This document shows positions 4,703 through 28,433 of a stretch of DNA of 38,357 nt, one piece after another. The notes under the pieces were generated by a model. It searched no databases and was not told the DNA's origin. It worked only from the letters and a program-made list of their open reading frames with translations. The translations under genes were made by a program, and so were the position numbers. Every line of letters starts with the position of its first letter. Within the stretch, counting starts at the first letter, position 1. This stretch comes from Clostridia bacterium. GTDB lineage: Bacteria > Bacillota > DULZ01. The stretch is from NCBI GenBank assembly GCA_012840125.1, contig DULZ01000001.1, forward strand, positions 1 to 38,357. Direction: 5' to 3'.

Positions 4703-5344
4703 TCAGCGTTCCGGGCCGGGTAGCCCTTCTCCGGATTGGGCTCGTGAGGATACGGTAACCATGAATTCTTTCAGCCGCGCCAGGTCAGATAAATACACGG
4801 ATTTGAGCCGGCGGTTGTAGATCACCGCTGCCGGGTGGAAAAGAGGGAAGACCCAAGCCCGGTGCCCCTCGTCAAAGAATGGAGTGCCGTGGAAATCCTT
4901 CATGGAACAGTTTTTCCCCAGGAGGCGGCTCAGGGGCACCGTGCCTAAAGTGACGATGATCTCCGGGGAGACCAGTTTGAGCTCCTGTTCCAGCCAGGGA
5001 CTGCAGGCTTGGATTTCCGAGGCTTTGGGCCGGCGATTGGCATAAGCCCCGTATCTTCCCCTGGCGGAAGGTTTGGTGGGCCGGCATTTCACGGTATTGG
5101 TCAGGTAAATCTGTTCCCGGGTCAAGTTGAGGAAGGCCAGGAATTCCTGTAAGTATTCACCTGCTTCTCCGGTAAAAGCTTGTCCCGAAACCATGTCTTC
5201 ATGTCCCCCGGGGGCCTCCCCCAAAAGGAGCAGTTTCGCCTTGGGATCCCCTTCCCCAATAACTACCCGGGTCCTGGTCTGCCATAATGAGCAGTTTTGA
5301 CACCGGGCTAGCTGCTGTTGCAGTTCTTTTAACGACAAATCCAC
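4703..5344 (-). CDS. Family 4-like uracil-DNA glycosylase, [4Fe-4S]
   Basis: A uracil-DNA glycosylase of the iron-sulfur families, about 213 residues. Motif 1 is GEAPGGHED followed by TGEAGEYLQ, and the C-terminal motif is LFHPAAVIYNRRL with the conserved HPA. Four cysteines fit the cluster ligands: the CQNC pair near the N-terminus, one in TVKCRPT and one in QACSPWL. The enzyme removes uracil from DNA as the first step of base excision repair. An ATG at 5353 would have GGAAGG directly abutting it, whereas GTG at 5344 sits nine bases from that site, so I prefer 5344; the ATG is the alternative. The gene stands alone, with its own terminator and a long gene-free leader. In family 4 enzymes the residue after GEAPG is usually Ala or Ser; here it is Gly. 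Confidence 0.85.
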   Translation of the reverse strand: MDLSLKELQQQLARCQNCSLWQTRTRVVIGEGDPKAKLLLLGEAPGGHEDMVSGQAFTGEAGEYLQEFLAFLNLTREQIYLTNTVKCRPTKPSARGRYGAYANRRPKASEIQACSPWLEQELKLVSPEIIVTLGTVPLSRLLGKNCSMKDFHGTPFFDEGHRAWVFPLFHPAAVIYNRRLKSVYLSDLARLKEFMVTVSSRAQSGEGLPGPER

Positions 5345-5702
5345 AAGCTTCATCCTTCCGGGTGTTTTTTAGATCTATTCCACCGGCCGGGGAGAAAAAC
5401 CTGCCGCGGAACCACAGATTACGCGGGCCTGCCGTCTCAGTTGAGTTCTTGACCTCCCGGAGTGCAGGCTCCTGGTGCACTGCAAGGAACGGCTTAAATG
5501 CAGGGAGCCCTTAACGGTGGTCAGGCACCAGTCGCCGGGCTGGGTTTCCGTCGCCCCGGCCATAGGCCGAAAGGGCTATTAAGACCTAAAAGGATGATGA
5601 CGGCCATAGGACGGCGACCGCTGTTGAGCTCATTCCCCAATCGGGCTCTTGGCCGCAGGCCATTAACAGCCAATGCTGAAGGGCAGTGGGTCAAAAAGCT
5701 GA
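5345..5702. other. Gene-free stretch with nested inverted repeats, function unknown
   Basis: No credible coding frame is seen. The stretch is GC-rich and contains nested complementary segments: CTGGTGC (5473-5479) with GCACCAG (5525-5531), CTGCA (5480-5484) with TGCAG (5498-5502) inside it, and GTCGCC (5550-5555) with GGCGAC (5613-5618). It could be a leader of the glycosylase gene or an independent structured RNA. I do not recognise it as 6S, SRP, RNase P or a known riboswitch. Confidence 0.3.
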
Positions 5703-5721
5703 AGGCCGGGTTGCCCGGCCT
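5703..5721 (-). terminator. Terminator-like hairpin after the last YjcZ-like gene
   Basis: AGGCCGGG (5703-5710) pairs with CCCGGCCT (5714-5721) around a three-base loop. On the minus strand a five-T run follows within a few bases. It lies just downstream of the stop at 5733. Confidence 0.6.
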
Positions 5722-5732
5722 ATGTCCATGGA

Positions 5733-5819
5733 TTAATAGTCAATGGAGAACACCAGCAGCACGAGGATTAAGAAGATGGCGAAAGCCAGCTGGTTATTGA
5801 AGAAGCTGCCTCCCATCAT
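5733..5819 (-). CDS. YjcZ-like sporulation micropeptide (copy 1)
   Basis: A 28-residue peptide starting MMGGSFFNNQLAFAIF and ending in a hydrophobic run closed by FSIDY. An ideal AAAGGAGG lies six bases before the ATG. It belongs to the group of tiny Gly/Asn-headed, single-helix peptides annotated as YjcZ-family sporulation proteins (family assignment by resemblance). The core LAFxIFLILVLLxFSID is shared with three neighbours. A sigma-K-like promoter lies just upstream (5857-5882). Confidence 0.7.
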   Translation of the reverse strand: MMGGSFFNNQLAFAIFLILVLLVFSIDY

Positions 5820-5856
5820 GAAGCCTCCTTTCCGGTAGGGATTTGCTGGGAATCCC

Positions 5857-5882
5857 TAAACTATGTTGCCAGGTTTACTAGT
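5857..5882 (-). promoter_or_regulatory. Candidate sigma-K promoter for YjcZ-like copy 1
   Basis: On the minus strand, AC is followed after 15 bases by CATAGTTTA, which matches the sigma-K -10 consensus CATANNNTA. The usual spacing is 16-17 bases, so it is one base short. It overlaps the end of the copy 2 gene. Confidence 0.4.
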
Positions 5883-5985
5883 CAATGGCGAAAATTAACA
5901 AGATCAAAATGAGAAACACCATAAAAGCCAAGTTGCTGCCCCAGTAGCCGCCCTTGCCCCCTCCTCCGGTTGCACTGTTGCTCAT
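5878..5985 (-). CDS. YjcZ-like sporulation micropeptide (copy 2)
   Basis: A 35-residue peptide with a Gly-rich head (TGGGGKGGYWGS) and the hydrophobic helix NLAFMVFLILILLIFAID at its C-terminus. AAAGGAGG sits ten bases upstream of the ATG. It has the longest Gly-rich head after copy 4. A perfect sigma-K-type promoter match lies 31 bases upstream of the start, suggesting mother-cell expression late in sporulation (inference). Confidence 0.7.
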   Translation of the reverse strand: MSNSATGGGGKGGYWGSNLAFMVFLILILLIFAID

Positions 5986-6015
5986 GCAAAAATCCTCCTT
6001 TCTTTCCTTCTCCTA

Positions 6016-6042
6016 TATACTATGGGAGGATTTTTGGATGGT
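6016..6042 (-). promoter_or_regulatory. Candidate sigma-K promoter for YjcZ-like copy 2
   Basis: On the minus strand, AC, 16 bases and CATAGTATA: an exact match to the sigma-K pattern AC-N16/17-CATANNNTA. The predicted start site would leave a short leader carrying the AAAGGAGG site of copy 2. Confidence 0.55.
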
Positions 6043-6074
6043 GACAGCCGCAGGCTGTGTTATTCATTGGTAAT

Positions 6075-6098
6075 AAAGACCGGGAGGCCCCGGTCTTT
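6075..6098 (-). terminator. Hairpin separating YjcZ-like copies 3 and 2
   Basis: AAAGACCGGG (6075-6084) pairs perfectly with CCCGGTCTTT (6089-6098) around a four-base loop. It lies just after the copy 3 stop codon on the minus strand. The T tail beyond the stem is weak on that strand. Confidence 0.55.
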
Positions 6099-6104
6099 TA
6101 GATA

Positions 6105-6191
6105 TTAATAATTGTCAATGGAGAAGATGAGCAGCACCAGGATCAAGAAAATGGCAAAAGCGAGGGTGTCGCCAAAGAAGCCCTTGCTCAT
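6105..6191 (-). CDS. YjcZ-like sporulation micropeptide (copy 3)
   Basis: A 28-residue peptide, MSKGFFGDTLAFAIF and onward, ending FSIDNY. AAGGAGG lies eight bases before the ATG. Its start is only 21 bases from the end of copy 4, so the two are probably co-transcribed. The hydrophobic core differs from copy 1 by only a few residues, indicating recent tandem duplication. Confidence 0.7.
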   Translation of the reverse strand: MSKGFFGDTLAFAIFLILVLLIFSIDNY

Positions 6192-6212
6192 AAATTTACC
6201 TCCTTCCCTTGC

Positions 6213-6323
6213 TTAATACTTCTTCTTATCGATGGAGAAGATTAAAAGAACTAGAATGAGGAAAATCGCGAAAGCTAAGTTGTCGCGATAGCCGCCGTAA
6301 CCGCCGCCGACTCCGGTACCCAT
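6213..6323 (-). CDS. YjcZ-like sporulation micropeptide (copy 4)
   Basis: A 36-residue peptide with the Gly/Tyr-rich head MGTGVGGGYGGYRDN, the shared helix LAFAIFLILVLLIFSID and a basic tail KKKY. AAAGGAGG is seven bases from the ATG. The Gly/Tyr head is the form most like classical YjcZ proteins, which supports the family assignment for the whole cluster. It heads the group, with a near-consensus sigma-K promoter at 6395-6422. Confidence 0.72.
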   Translation of the reverse strand: MGTGVGGGYGGYRDNLAFAIFLILVLLIFSIDKKKY

Positions 6324-6394
6324 AGCAAGCCTCCTTTCAATTAATCAACTCGTCGTTTGCTGGTTAAGAGCATGAATGGTGTATGCTTTGATAC

Positions 6395-6422
6395 CATACT
6401 ATGGGAAGCGGGCGCAAAGGGT
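6395..6422 (-). promoter_or_regulatory. Near-consensus sigma-K promoter for YjcZ-like copies 4 and 3
   Basis: On the minus strand, AC, 17 bases and CATAGTATG, with one mismatch in the last base of CATANNNTA. The leader to the copy 4 start would be about 65 bases. The same bases read on the plus strand contain CATACTA, a sigma-G-like -10, so the assignment is not unique. Confidence 0.4.
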
Positions 6423-6532: not shown

Positions 6533-6787
6533 TTGGAAATTACATCTTGGGAGCAATGGCTGGATACGTTGGGTACGGCCTTGAGCAAAGCCCAGTCTAT
6601 GAAAATGCCGAAAAAGCTCTTAACGAAATCAGCCGCTGAGCTGGGCGATTTTCTCTTTGATACCATTGATCCGGATGTGCCGGAAAACCGCTTGTTGAAG
6701 AAGATGTGGGAAGTGGCGGACCGCAAGGAAAAGGAAGCCCTGGCCAATGTCATGATCAAGCTGGTGGAGAAAAGAACGACCCATTAA
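6533..6787 (+). CDS. DUF3243 family protein
   Basis: An 84-residue soluble protein beginning at a TTG preceded by AAAAGGGGG. It matches the DUF3243 family (Bacillus YmfJ type): an opening SWEQWLDTLG, a middle LGDFLFDTIDPDVPENRLLKKMW and the ending ADRKEKEALANVMIKLVEK. The function of the family is unknown; members are small helical proteins frequent in endospore formers. It is transcribed divergently from the YjcZ-like cluster. Confidence 0.8.
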   Translation: MEITSWEQWLDTLGTALSKAQSMKMPKKLLTKSAAELGDFLFDTIDPDVPENRLLKKMWEVADRKEKEALANVMIKLVEKRTTH

Positions 6788-6943: not shown

Positions 6944-7186
6944 ATGCGCATCAAATTGCATTTGATGGGAGCTCTAAAACACACAATGCAGGCCGGGGAC
7001 CGCTTTGACCCAAGTGGTTACCTGGAAGTCGATGCAGCGACGACCCCCCGAGATCTCATCCGGTCCTTGGGTGTGACCGGCGAAGATGTGCTGGTCTTGA
7101 TCAACGGTAAACCGGTGCCCCTGGATGAAAAGATAGCCCCTGATGACCGGGTAGTGCTCATGTATCCTGATTCCCATGAAACTTGA
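6944..7186 (+). CDS. MoaD/ThiS-like beta-grasp protein lacking the diglycine end
   Basis: An 80-residue protein resembling sulfur-carrier proteins of the MoaD/ThiS group: strand RIKLHLMGALK, a TTPRDLIRSLGV helix, VLVLINGKPV and IAPDDRVVLMYP. Genuine carriers end in Gly-Gly, which is adenylated and thiocarboxylated; this one ends PDSHET, so it cannot use that chemistry as encoded. It may be a structural or regulatory beta-grasp protein. No moeB, thiF, moaE or thiG partner lies nearby. A terminator follows within 20 bases, so it is not in the gerA transcript. Confidence 0.65.
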   Translation: MRIKLHLMGALKHTMQAGDRFDPSGYLEVDAATTPRDLIRSLGVTGEDVLVLINGKPVPLDEKIAPDDRVVLMYPDSHET

Positions 7187-7241: not shown

Positions 7242-7272
7242 GCATAACCGGAAAGGAGATGTAGCCATACTA
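7242..7272 (+). promoter_or_regulatory. Candidate sigma-G promoter for the gerA operon
   Basis: GCATA (7242-7246), a 19-base spacer and CATACTA (7266-7272) fit the forespore sigma-G pattern GHATR / CATWHTA, with spacing at the long end. gerA operons are known sigma-G targets. The predicted transcript would start about 25 bases before the GTG. Confidence 0.45.
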
Positions 7273-7301
7273 TAGATCACCGGGAAAAAGGAGGACAGGG
7301 T

Positions 7302-11710: not shown

Positions 11711-11775
11711 CTGATGATAGGTTGTCTGACAATGCGCTCGTGGTAAACAAGAAACCCAGGGGGAGGGAGAGTGCC

Positions 11776-14454
11776 ATGGTTAATTTGACCATCGACGGGC
11801 ATCCTGTGTCAGTTCCCGAAGGTACGACCGTGCTGGAGGCGGCCCGGGAAATCGGCATTGATATACCGAACCTGTGCTATGACAAGCATCTTACCCCAGC
11901 AGGTGCCTGCCGGATGTGTGTTGTTTCCATTGAGGGGTTTCGCAACCTGGCCACGGCCTGTACGACGGTAGTGTCCGAAGGCATGGTGGTGCAAACCGAG
12001 ACCCCGGAAGTCGTTGAAGCCAGGAAGATGATTCTCGATTTAATCCTGGCTAATCACCCGCAGGATTGTCTGACTTGTGAAAAAACAGGGAATTGCCAGT
12101 TACAAGACTTGTGTTATCGCTACGGTGTGAAAACCACCACCTTTGCCGGTGAGCGCCGGAATGTGCCGAAAGACACCGGCAATCACCTCATCGAACGGGA
12201 TTACAATAAATGTATCCTCTGCGGTAAATGTGTCCGGGTCTGCGCCGAAGTCCAAGGCACCAATGCCGTGGATTTCGTGGGCCGGGGTTTCCAGACCGTG
12301 GTGGATACCGCTTTCCGGGAGCATCTCAACCTGGAGAACTGCCGTTTCTGCGGCCAGTGCGTGGAAATGTGCCCCACCGGAGCTTTGATCAACAAGCAGT
12401 TCAAGGGTACCAGGCCCTGGCAAATCACCAAGAAAGTCAGGACCACTTGTCCTTTCTGCGGCACGGGCTGCAATTTTGATCTGAACGTCAAAGACGGCAA
12501 GATCATCGGCGTCACCACCGGTAACCCGGACGGGGTGGTCAACGGGCGAGCCCTCTGCGTGAAAGGGCGCTTCCACACCGACATGATCTACAGCCCGGAA
12601 AGGATTACCACGCCTTTAATCAAGAAAAACGGGGAATTCGTCCCGGCCACCTGGGATGAAGCTTTGGATCTGGTCGCTTCCAAGTTCAAGGAGATCAAGG
12701 AGCAGTACGGCAGCGATGCCATCGCGGCTTTGAGTTCCGCGCGCTGCACCAATGAAGACAACTATGTCATGCAGAAATTCGTGCGGGCGGTGATCGGCAC
12801 CAACAACGTCGACCACTGCGCCCGGACGTGACACGCGCCTACCGTAGCCGGTCTGGCTACTGTATTTGGCAGCGGTGCAATGACCAACTCTATTGGTGAA
12901 ATTGAGTTTAACGATTGCCTTTTCGTCATCGGTTCCAACGCCCCTGAAGCCCATCCGGTGATCGGGAGCAAGATGAAGAGAGCCAAGAGAAGGGGAGCCA
13001 AGCTCATCGTCGCCGATCCCAGGAAGACGGAACTGGCGGAAATGGCCGACGTATGGCTGCGGCTGATTCCCGGTACCGATGCGGCTTTGATCAACGGGAT
13101 GATTCACATTATCATCACCGAGGGCTGGGAAGACCGGGAGTTCATTGAAACCCGGTGCGAGGGCTTTGATGACATGTGGAAAGTAGTGCAAAACTACCCG
13201 CCCAGCCGGGCCGCCGAGATCACCGGTGTTCCCGAAGAACTGATCTACCGGGCGGCGGAGCTTTACGCCAAGACCAAGCATGCCGGTATTTACTACACTT
13301 TAGGTATCACCGAGCATACCACCGGTACCGCCAACGTGATGAACCTGGCCAACCTGGCCATGGTCACCGGCCATGTGGGCCTCGAAAGGGCCGGGGTCAA
13401 CCCGTTGAGAGGCCAGAACAACGTACAAGGGGCCTGCGACATGGGTGCCCTGCCCAACGTTTTCCCAGGCTACCAAGCCGTCAGCAACCCGCAGGTGATT
13501 GAGAAATTCGAGAAAGCCTGGGGTGTAACCCTGAACCGGCAAATGGGTCTCCGCATTCCGGAGATGATTGATATGGCGTTGTACGGCCAGGTGAAAGCCA
13601 TGTACATCATGGGTGAAGACCCGGTTCTCACGGACCCTGACGCCAACCATGTCCGGAAAGCCTTGGAGAAGCTGGATTTCATGGTGGTGCAGGATCTGTT
13701 CCTCACCGAGACGGCCAAGTATGCCGATGTATTCCTCCCGGCGGCCTGTTATGCCGAGAAGGAAGGCACTTTTACCAACACGGAGCGCCGGGTGCAGAGA
13801 GTGAGAAAAGCCGTGGAACCCCCCGGCCAGTGCCGCCAGGATTGGGAGATCATCTGCGACCTGTCCCGCCGCATGGGTTATGACATGGACTACTGCTGCA
13901 GTGAGCAGATTTTCAATGAAATGAGGAGCTTAACACCGAGTTATGCCGGCATCACCTACGCCAGGATTGACAAGGTGGGCATCCAGTGGCCCTGCCCGTC
14001 GGAAGACCATCCCGGCACCAAGTTCCTGCACCAGGGCACTTTCCCCAGAGGAAAAGGTCTCCTGCAGGGCATAGAGTATGAAGCACCGGCGGAATTGACC
14101 AATGAAGAATACCCGATGCTCATGACCACCGGCCGGATGCTGTATCACTATAACGTGACCACCAGGCGTTCCGCCAACCTGGACCGGCTGCGTCCCCATG
14201 AGCTGGCCCAGTTGAATCCGGTGGATGCGGCGAAAATCGGCGTGCAAGAGGGAGATGAGATCCGCGTCAGTTCCCGCCGCGGTTCCATCACCACCAAAGT
14301 CACTCTTACGGAAAAAGTACCGCCCGGCATTATGTTCATGACGTTCCACTACTGGGAGTCCCCGGTCAATGAGTTGACCAACTCCGCTTATGACCCGATT
14401 AGTAAGACGGCGGAGTACAAGGTGTCGGCGGTGCGCATCGAGAAAGTGTCATAA
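11776..14454 (+). CDS. fdhA: Formate dehydrogenase catalytic subunit, selenocysteine-containing
   Basis: One 892-residue protein read through an in-frame TGA (12829-12831) as selenocysteine at residue 352, in the context HCART-Sec-HAPTV typical of formate dehydrogenases. The N-terminal part is NuoG/HydA-like: [2Fe-2S] Cys34/45/48/62, a His94/Cys98/101/107 cluster and two ferredoxin-type clusters (146-156 and 189-199). The Mo/W-bis-pyranopterin domain follows with its own cluster at Cys225/228/232/261 and a C-terminal dinucleotide-binding domain. It interconverts formate and CO2; with this architecture it is a soluble NAD(P)- or ferredoxin-linked type like the Moorella enzyme. No diaphorase partner gene lies alongside. 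ATG 11776 has GGGAGGGAG upstream; the frame is open earlier but without support. Confidence 0.93.
12829..12862 (+). promoter_or_regulatory. Bacterial SECIS element of the formate dehydrogenase gene
   Basis: Directly after the TGA, GTAGCC (12844-12849) and GGCTAC (12855-12860) form a perfect six-base stem around the loop GGTCT. The GGUCU apical loop and its distance from the UGA closely match the E. coli fdhF element recognised by SelB. Confidence 0.85.
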
Positions 14455-16327: not shown

Positions 16328-16464
16328 TACCTGCGGAGCGCTGAATTCTCACCGGCGTGAGAAGCGGAGGACCCACTTTTTGGGGTGAATCTCTCAGTTG
16401 CTGAGAGTAGGGTTAGCTTTCGACCCGAACCCGTCAGCTAACTTCGTAAGCGTGGAAAGTAGGA
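16328..16464 (+). ncRNA. Cyclic di-AMP riboswitch (ydaO/yuaA class) aptamer
   Basis: Conserved ydaO-class blocks occur in order: CGCTGAATTCTCACC, GGAGGACCCAC then TTTTTGGGGTGAATC, a hairpin CTCTCAGTTGCTGAGAG, GGGTTAGCTTTCGACCCG and AACCCGTCAGCTAACTTCGT. This class binds c-di-AMP and usually turns genes off. The 3' edge GGAAAGTAGG (16454-16463) is exactly complementary to CCTACTTTCC (16502-16511), the 5' arm and loop of the terminator. Without ligand this antiterminator can form; ligand binding would hold the 3' edge in the aptamer and let termination occur. The recognition rests on remembered consensus rather than a covariance search. Confidence 0.88.
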
Positions 16465-16499
16465 GCTTTAACCCGTGTGATTAAAGTTTGCTTTTTTAT

Positions 16500-16526: not shown

Positions 16527-16597
16527 CCTGCCGATTACTGCATCATTGAGCGGGGAGGTAATGGAAGGAAACCAATTTGCAAGGGAGGTTGATGCGC

Positions 16598-27389: not shown

Positions 27390-28433
27390 ATGGCGGACAT
27401 ACGTTTAACACAATGCGCCAAGGCCTCCGGGTGAGCGGCAAAGGTAGGTCCGGGGACCTTAAGAGACGTACTTGGCACCATCACCACTGTGGAAGACCCG
27501 CGCCTTTTGGTCAGCGGGGCCACGATGGATGATGCCGGTGTCTACCGGCTCACCGATGAACTGGCCCTGGTGCAGACCGTGGACTTCTTCACGCCCATGG
27601 TGGATGACCCGTATTTGTTCGGGCAGATCGCGGCGGCGAACGCCTTAAGCGATGTTTATGCCATGGGGGGTAAGCCCCTTACCGCAATGAACATCGCCGC
27701 TTTTCCGGTGAGCACCATGGACCTGGGCATATTGAGGGATATTTTCCGGGGAGGTGCCGACAAGCTTAAAGAAGCAAAGACGCTGCTGGTGGGAGGCCAT
27801 ACCATTGAGGACCAGGAACCGAAATACGGTTTATCGGTGACGGGGATTGTACATCCCGAGAAGATATGGACCAACCGGGGCGGGAAACCGGGGGACAGCC
27901 TGGTTTTGACCAAACCCCTGGGGACCGGGATCATCAGCACGGCCATCAAAGGGGAAATGGCCGGCCGGGAGTCCGTGGAAGAAGCCGTACGCTTCATGAC
28001 CACCTTGAATAATGCGGCAGCGGAAGCAGCCGCCCAAGTCGGGGTCCATGCCTGTACCGATGTGACCGGCTTCGGCCTTTTGGGGCATCTCTATGAGATG
28101 ATGACGCCGGAAATAGGTTTTGAAATCATCTGGCCGCAAGTGCCGCTGATGGCGGGAACCAAAGACTACGCTTCCTGGGGACTGGTGCCCGGGGGTGCAC
28201 GTCGCAATCTCAAGTACCTGCACGACGCCGTCGAACGGGAAAAAGGCATCTCCGACATTGCCATGGATATCCTGGCGGATCCCCAAACTTCAGGGGGATT
28301 ACTGTTGGCGGTATCATCGGAGAAAGCACAAGCATTAGTAGCCGCCTTGCATGAACGAGGTGTCGCGGCGGCACAAGTGATTGGATATGTGACGGACAAG
28401 CATCCGGGCAAAATTCTAGTGAGAGGGTGGTAG
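27390..28433 (+). CDS. selD: Selenide, water dikinase, selenocysteine-containing
   Basis: A 347-residue SelD in which codon 15 is TGA (27432-27434), in the context KASG-Sec-AAKVG, the site of the catalytic Cys/Sec. The frame is continuous before and after it. Later motifs: VQTVDFFTPMVDDPYLFGQI, DVYAMGGKPLTAMNIAAFP and DVTGFGLLGHL; it makes selenophosphate from selenide and ATP for selenocysteine synthesis. AAAGGAGAG precedes the ATG by eight bases. yedF starts four bases after the stop, making a selenium operon. selA, selB and tRNA-Sec are not in this window. Confidence 0.93.
27435..27465 (+). promoter_or_regulatory. Bacterial SECIS-like hairpin of selD
   Basis: Starting 11 bases after the TGA, AGGTC (27446-27450) and GACCT (27455-27459) form a perfect stem around CGGG. 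Position and size fit a bacterial SECIS; the loop differs from that of the formate dehydrogenase element. Confidence 0.6.

Follow-up and report, generated by a model that had tools for sequence, protein, structure and literature searches.

A cluster of four micropeptide genes with sigma-K-like promoters and the FLILILL family in Bacillota genomes

Four micropeptide genes and their putative transcription units

The window analysed here is a stretch of 38,357 nucleotides from a Clostridia bacterium (contig DULZ01000001.1, positions 1 to 38,357). Between 5733 and 6323, its minus strand holds four micropeptide ORFs of 36, 28, 35 and 28 amino acids, in the order p1, p2, p3, p4. This result confirms all four of the 28-36-residue genes proposed for the locus in an original prediction made from the sequence. 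The genes and the signals around them are:

6395-6422, minus strand: P1, sigma-K-like promoter AC-N17-CATAGTATG with G as its final A (sequence match)
6330-6337, minus strand: ribosome binding site (RBS) of p1, AAAGGAGG (sequence)
6213-6323, minus strand: p1 micropeptide, 36 amino acids, MGTGVGGGYGGYRDNLAFAIFLILVLLIFSIDKKKY (ORF and own-profile match; AlphaFold2 helix 12-35)
6199-6205, minus strand: RBS of p2, AAGGAGG (sequence)
6105-6191, minus strand: p2 micropeptide, 28 amino acids, MSKGFFGDTLAFAIFLILVLLIFSIDNY (ORF and own-profile match)
6075-6098, minus strand: hairpin 3' of p2, -17.2 kcal/mol, z -4.9, followed by a weak U run
6016-6042, minus strand: P3, sigma-K-like promoter AC-N16-CATAGTATA, perfect (sequence match)
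5994-6000, minus strand: RBS of p3, AAGGAGG (sequence)
5878-5985, minus strand: p3 micropeptide, 35 amino acids, MSNSATGGGGKGGYWGSNLAFMVFLILILLIFAID (ORF and own-profile match)
5857-5882, minus strand: P4, sigma-K-like promoter AC-N15-CATAGTTTA, perfect at N15 (sequence match)
5824-5831, minus strand: RBS of p4, AAAGGAGG (sequence)
5733-5819, minus strand: p4 micropeptide, 28 amino acids, MMGGSFFNNQLAFAIFLILVLLVFSIDY (ORF and own-profile match)
5703-5721, minus strand: intrinsic terminator 3' of p4, -15.7 kcal/mol

As had been predicted, every gene has a strong RBS (AAGGAGG or AAAGGAGG, 4-8 bases 5' of the ATG) and the peptides share a core, their alignment having 13 invariant columns. The three sigma-K-like upstream sites are likewise present: P1 as a near-match, P3 as a perfect match and P4 as a perfect match at N15, with its AC lying within the last codon of p3. 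The gap between p1 and p2 is 21 bases and holds no promoter-like site of p2's own; p2 is probably co-transcribed with p1, and the hairpin at 6075-6098 is likely the terminator of this p1-p2 unit. Because sigma-K-like sites precede p1, p3 and p4 and hairpins follow p2 and p4, the cluster probably forms three transcription units, namely p1-p2, p3 and p4.

The original prediction expected standard gene callers to overlook these genes. The p2 and p4 ORFs are 87 bases each, and the default minimum ORF of common gene callers is 90 bases. Passages of PMC3533761 describe short ORFs as often overlooked in annotation.

A uracil-DNA glycosylase gene (4703-5353) lies on one side of the cluster and a DUF3243 gene (6533-6787) on the other, beyond which lies a GerA/GerB/GerC-type germination operon. 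We considered and dropped a functional link to this operon, whose adjacency looks incidental given that it runs divergently and that family members elsewhere are dispersed. Beside the DUF3243 gene and the germination operon, the plus strand also encodes a ubiquitin-like SAMP2-family protein of 80 amino acids (6944-7186). A perfect AC-N17-CATACTATA site of sigma-K type stands on the plus strand at 7247-7274, 28 bases 5' of the GerA start. It could also be read as a sigma-G -10, given that germination operons usually belong to the forespore.

Other features of the window, all on the plus strand, were noted in passing. A gene resembling formate dehydrogenase alpha by eye (11722-14454) has an in-frame TGA at 12829-12831 (context DHCART-U-HAPTVAGL) and likely encodes a selenocysteine protein. 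Similarly, a selD-like gene (selenophosphate synthase, by eye; 27390-28433) has an in-frame TGA at 27432-27434 (context KASG-U-AAKVGPG), and its product is probably itself a selenoprotein. A c-di-AMP riboswitch (RF00379, 101.8 bits) at 16329-16467 lies about 110 bases 5' of a lysine-2,3-aminomutase-like radical SAM gene at 16577. Finally, a 201-amino-acid ORF at 22-627 contains repeated YDxGYDDGYDAGxDD-type motifs and has no Pfam match.

The FLILILL family and its relation to YjcZ

We compared the four genes with each other over a 17-codon core. Between paralogue pairs, the synonymous difference pS is 0.48-1.0 (48-101%) and the non-synonymous difference pN 0.04-0.25 (4-25%). High pS together with low pN indicates products under selection as proteins, and the high pS also points to an old age of the copies. 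All four slots recur, in unchanged order, in the sister genome G002; three of them recur in G001, in a cluster flanked by ORFs that resemble, by eye, the same DUF3243 and glycosylase genes. The family had originally been described as recently expanded. We reject this claim on the basis of the slots common to these relatives and of synonymous differences near saturation in five of the six paralogue pairs. With the own profile of p1-p4, no further copy was found in the genome at E ≤ 10; the four peptides score 57-75 bits with this model and 47-55 bits with a 26-row model that includes them.

The p1-p4 profile matched in 17 of 41 genomes (G000 and 40 relatives) at E ≤ 0.1, some of these matches being spurious: among the weak ones (E 0.01-0.1), no short ORF passing the filter was found at L016 and L020-L022. 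With a profile of 26 members at E ≤ 0.01, 91 of 299 Bacillota genomes are carriers, with 1-12 copies each. The carriers include 83 of the 267 good-quality genomes and represent 65 of the 215 genera. The sampled phylum was taken as Bacillota from the named relatives and from the presence of SpoIVA and YjcZ.

We collected 205 member ORFs of at most 90 amino acids from the profile loci and from a pattern scan of named genomes; this set is biased to the best matches, as it comes from 80 stretches around profile places plus earlier loci. The members (median 32 amino acids, 193 of the 205 having at most 50) carry, after a Gly-rich N-terminus, the core F-x-x-F-L-I-L-[IV]-L-L-x-x-[GS], from which we call them the FLILILL family. 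In the 193 short members, the core residues F, L, I, L, L and L vary little or not at all. Position +9 holds G in 144 of them and S in 29, and position +10 holds D in 88. The features that define the family are all found in p1-p4: a FLIL[IV]LL core, an ORF of 20-50 amino acids and a strong RBS.

Longer variants also occur, with a tail or a duplicated core (L037, L112, L122). For example, the core is followed by an amphipathic, coiled-coil-like tail in ORFs of 76-80 amino acids at L037 (4342-5537), L112 (5517) and L122 (minus strand), and L037 also has a 64-amino-acid ORF with two core copies. Variant peptides with CCNN-type tails (FLVFIILLLLICCNNHCD) at L018 and L033 (G036) are possibly a Cys-rich sub-branch.

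At least 116 stretches matched in the named-genome pattern scan, 80 of them listed with names. Among these named matches listed, 28 of 80 hold a short-ORF member (23 by a stricter ATG-only test), and all 28 are titled Bacillota or lineages within. The hosts include Desulfotruncus, Desulfofundulus, Desulforamulus, Desulfallas, Pelotomaculum, Sporotomaculum, Orenia, Halanaerobiales, Syntrophomonadaceae and Fermentithermobacillaceae. The non-members among the named matches listed include Flavobacteria, Pelagibacter and cyanobacteria, which reveals the chance level of the pattern. In the main texts of the open literature searched, the family is undescribed and no member is named; the sections of PMC3789822 consulted make no mention of it.

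The peptides had been called YjcZ-like in the original prediction. As a statement of membership, this did not hold. Neither p1-p4 nor the 26 members match any Pfam or NCBIfam model above cut-off, their few weak matches being to unrelated families, and YjcZ membership was rejected on this ground. The YjcZ_2 model PF09680 matches nowhere in the window's genome, and the same search does match in B. subtilis. Across the sample it matches 6 of 299 genomes, none of which is among the 91 FLILILL carriers (with six genomes, too few for a significant non-overlap). Direct comparison of the profiles (hhalign) gave a probability of 44.7% and a score of 17.4, which is at the level of column-permuted controls (5 of 20 reached at least 17.4, the highest being 20.4).

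The two groups are nonetheless alike in build. YjcZ peptides are as a rule 25-50 amino acids long, with a Gly-rich N-terminal part and a short hydrophobic segment ending in Gly, and they too occur as several dispersed copies with a sigma-K-type motif upstream (11 of the 16 YjcZ genes examined). They differ in the core, which is FLIL[IV]LL in our family and of the VVLFILLIIVG type in 16 YjcZ sequences; unlike YjcZ, FLILILL peptides often have a short acidic C-tail, and they are found in other genomes. As for YjcZ itself, passages of the literature list B. subtilis yjcZ among the genes previously assigned to the sigma-K regulon (PMC517825), name YjcZ as a membrane-associated small protein (PMC11796252), report five YjcZ genes as absent from a sporulation-impaired B. 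cereus strain (PMC8313275) and tentatively assign a MALDI signal to L36 or YjcZ (PMC10536843).

These likenesses raise the question of whether the FLILILL peptides are true, very divergent YjcZ homologues, that is, one ancient family split between Bacilli (FALIVVLFILLIIVGA) and anaerobes (FAFILFLILILLFFG). The common build extends to an F-A-x-I start and 15 positions from F to G, and the multiple dispersed copies per genome, the sigma-K-type motif and the lack of FLILILL members in the six YjcZ genomes would all fit such a split. Against it, the profile score is equalled or beaten by a quarter of the permuted controls, Pfam gives no cross-match, and six YjcZ genomes are too few to make the non-overlap significant. 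We consider common descent somewhat unlikely. The FLILILL peptides likely work like YjcZ; that they are YjcZ is not established.

Sigma-K-type promoters and the link to sporulation

Within the window, a looser pattern, AC-N14-18-CATANNNT, is not rare, with 14 occurrences on both strands where a Markov model gives 9.4 on average. For the stricter AC-N15-17-CATANNNTA, 6 occurrences compare to an average of 0.9 (at most 4 in 30 simulations), and two of the six are P3 and P4. Taken alone, the window's sites are suggestive only; they become convincing because of the family-wide statistics and of their conservation in two relatives. At P1, both G001 and G002 keep the N17 spacing and a CATAATATG -10 before their p1 orthologues. 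At P3, AC-N16-CATAGTATA is kept at the p3 orthologue in G002. P4 was not seen in G002, whose p4 orthologue is preceded by a CATA box without a spaced AC.

For the family as a whole, we scanned 128 bases (-140 to -12) upstream of 194 members, each of at most 60 amino acids and with at least 150 bases of upstream sequence, after removal of one duplicate. AC-N14-18-CATANNNT is found upstream of 98 of the 194; the reverse strand gives 6, and 40 dinucleotide shuffles give 6.0 +/- 2.7. In non-redundant upstreams, the motif occurs in 83 of 169 compared to 7 of 186 long-ORF starts of the same loci (p value = 7e-25), an enrichment of about 13-fold over control gene starts. The spacing of AC over 130 CATANNNT sites is 17 in 67 cases, 16 in 27, 14 in 22 and 15 in 12, with 1-9 cases at each of the other spacings (10-22).

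Other promoter types are less marked: TTGAC-type sigma-A sites precede 4 of 194 members (1.6 in shuffles), and sigma-E-like ATN sites, some of which may coincide with sigma-K sites, show a mild excess (20 of 194 vs 5.5). A terminator-like hairpin lies within 100 nt downstream of 58 of 169 members, compared to 1 of 169 when shuffled. About half of the members have no recognisable sigma-K site, and some of these are second genes of a unit, like p2.

The AC-N16/17-CATANNNTA-type promoter that marks sigma-K regulon genes is thus found at P1, P3 and P4 and family-wide. Judged by its sequence, the family promoter site has the -35, the -10 and the spacing of sigma-K, matched to a consensus that we take to be that of sigma-K. 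The part of PMC517825 on promoter logos separates a 5-base -35 from a 10-base -10 by 15 +/- 1 bases for sigma-K, which in our reading corresponds to AC-N16/17-CATA, and gives a spacing of 12 +/- 1 for sigma-E.

Accompanying this motif, the window's genome has sigK (TIGR02846, 357.5 bits vs a cut-off of 298.65) as well as SpoIVA. Together with the 13-fold enrichment, the presence of sigK upholds the prediction of promoters that would be active late in the mother cell. SpoIVA (TIGR02836) is found in 249 of the 299 genomes: 88 of the 91 carriers compared to 161 of the 208 non-carriers (Fisher p value = 8e-6, in a test that ignores genome relatedness). The three carriers without it are G092, with one marginal match, and two incomplete genomes, G235 (75% complete) and G283 (61% complete). 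Nearly all carriers are thus sporulators. As 161 non-carriers have SpoIVA, FLILILL peptides are not needed for sporulation as such.

The FLILILL micropeptides form a real and broad family that Pfam and NCBIfam lack, and they bear a strong sigma-K signature. We are highly confident that p1-p4 belong to it and are made under sigma-K.

Next, we investigated the gene neighbourhoods, using 109 of 127 neighbour ORFs around 37 long-flank loci (the 18 omitted being short ORFs and neighbours at loci similar to others in the set). Among the best 25 of 148 Pfam families listed, none occurs in more than 2 of the 109 neighbours; Coat_F and rubrerythrin are each found twice and spore photoproduct lyase once. 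An operon partner, or a function read from the neighbourhood, was dropped on this basis.

A possible role in the spore envelope

AlphaFold2 predicts p1 as one helix, with pLDDT 94 in residues 21-30 and low confidence in the Gly-rich part. The hydrophobic stretch is 14-15 residues, short for a membrane span. Over the 193 short members, the N-terminal parts are charge-neutral (216 K/R, 233 D/E) and the C-terminal parts net acidic (72 K/R vs 174 D/E), a distribution that would weakly favour an N-inside orientation.

We propose that late in sporulation, once engulfment is complete, the mother cell would use sigma-K to produce FLILILL peptides in quantity from several redundant genes. The hydrophobic helix may then enter the outer forespore membrane or a hydrophobic coat surface. 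The flexible, Gly-rich N-terminus of the peptide would face the mother cell, on the side of coat protein assembly, and the short, acidic C-terminus would lie on the opposite side of the membrane or coat. Rather than acting as enzymes or toxins, the peptides would be small structural elements that anchor or fill the spore envelope. We prefer this role over that of an enzyme partner or toxin because of the late mother-cell timing, the redundant copies, the lack of fixed neighbours among the families listed and the apolar helix, and from these we infer a component of the envelope at the outer forespore membrane or coat. The family-wide claim that the peptides anchor the envelope is an even call. 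For p1-p4, the combined reading as late mother-cell FLILILL peptides with such an anchoring or filling role is one that we favour modestly.

A more specific function can also be considered. SpoVM and CmpA are mother-cell micropeptides acting at the forespore membrane or coat, and FLILILL peptides could similarly be adaptors that bind and tune one particular integral protein of the coat or outer forespore membrane. A specific contact is suggested by their size and timing and by a helix face (F0, L1, I2, L3, L5 and L6) that is strictly conserved in the 193 members. Nevertheless, SpoVM and CmpA are single-copy regulators or coat anchors with other sequences; the FLILILL family, by comparison, is multi-copy with a strongly apolar helix. 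The copy number of 1-12, the variable tails and the absence of a conserved gene neighbour among the best 25 of 148 Pfam families listed speak against an adaptor, which we regard as unlikely.

Holin-like or toxin-like peptides helping mother-cell lysis at the end of sporulation would also combine a single hydrophobic helix, a late mother-cell promoter and many copies. The C-terminus is however acidic, not basic, neither an antitoxin RNA nor a lysin neighbour was noticed, and Rfam gives no match near the cluster, making a lytic role quite improbable. That these short sequences are chance ORFs, or RNA features without a translated product, has a negligible probability and is refuted as far as computation goes: the short length speaks for it, and saturated synonymous change over a conserved protein core and homologues in 91 of 299 genomes speak against it.

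Returning to the envelope role, late mother-cell genes are less known in anaerobic spore-formers than in Bacillus. The FLILILL peptides may be abundant, undescribed late mother-cell envelope peptides that, with YjcZ, reflect one principle for the outer layers of Bacillota endospores, a generalisation that we put forward tentatively. The clear sigma-K promoter signature makes the family directly testable in cultivable hosts such as Desulfofundulus, Desulforamulus, Orenia and Sporotomaculum. With a family profile, annotation pipelines could call several genes in each carrier genome, and the 98 of 194 upstreams that have the motif are a data set for the sigma-K consensus outside Bacillus. If the proposal is true, the outer layers of endospores would hold multi-copy hydrophobic sigma-K micropeptides that assemble with the outer forespore membrane or the coat.
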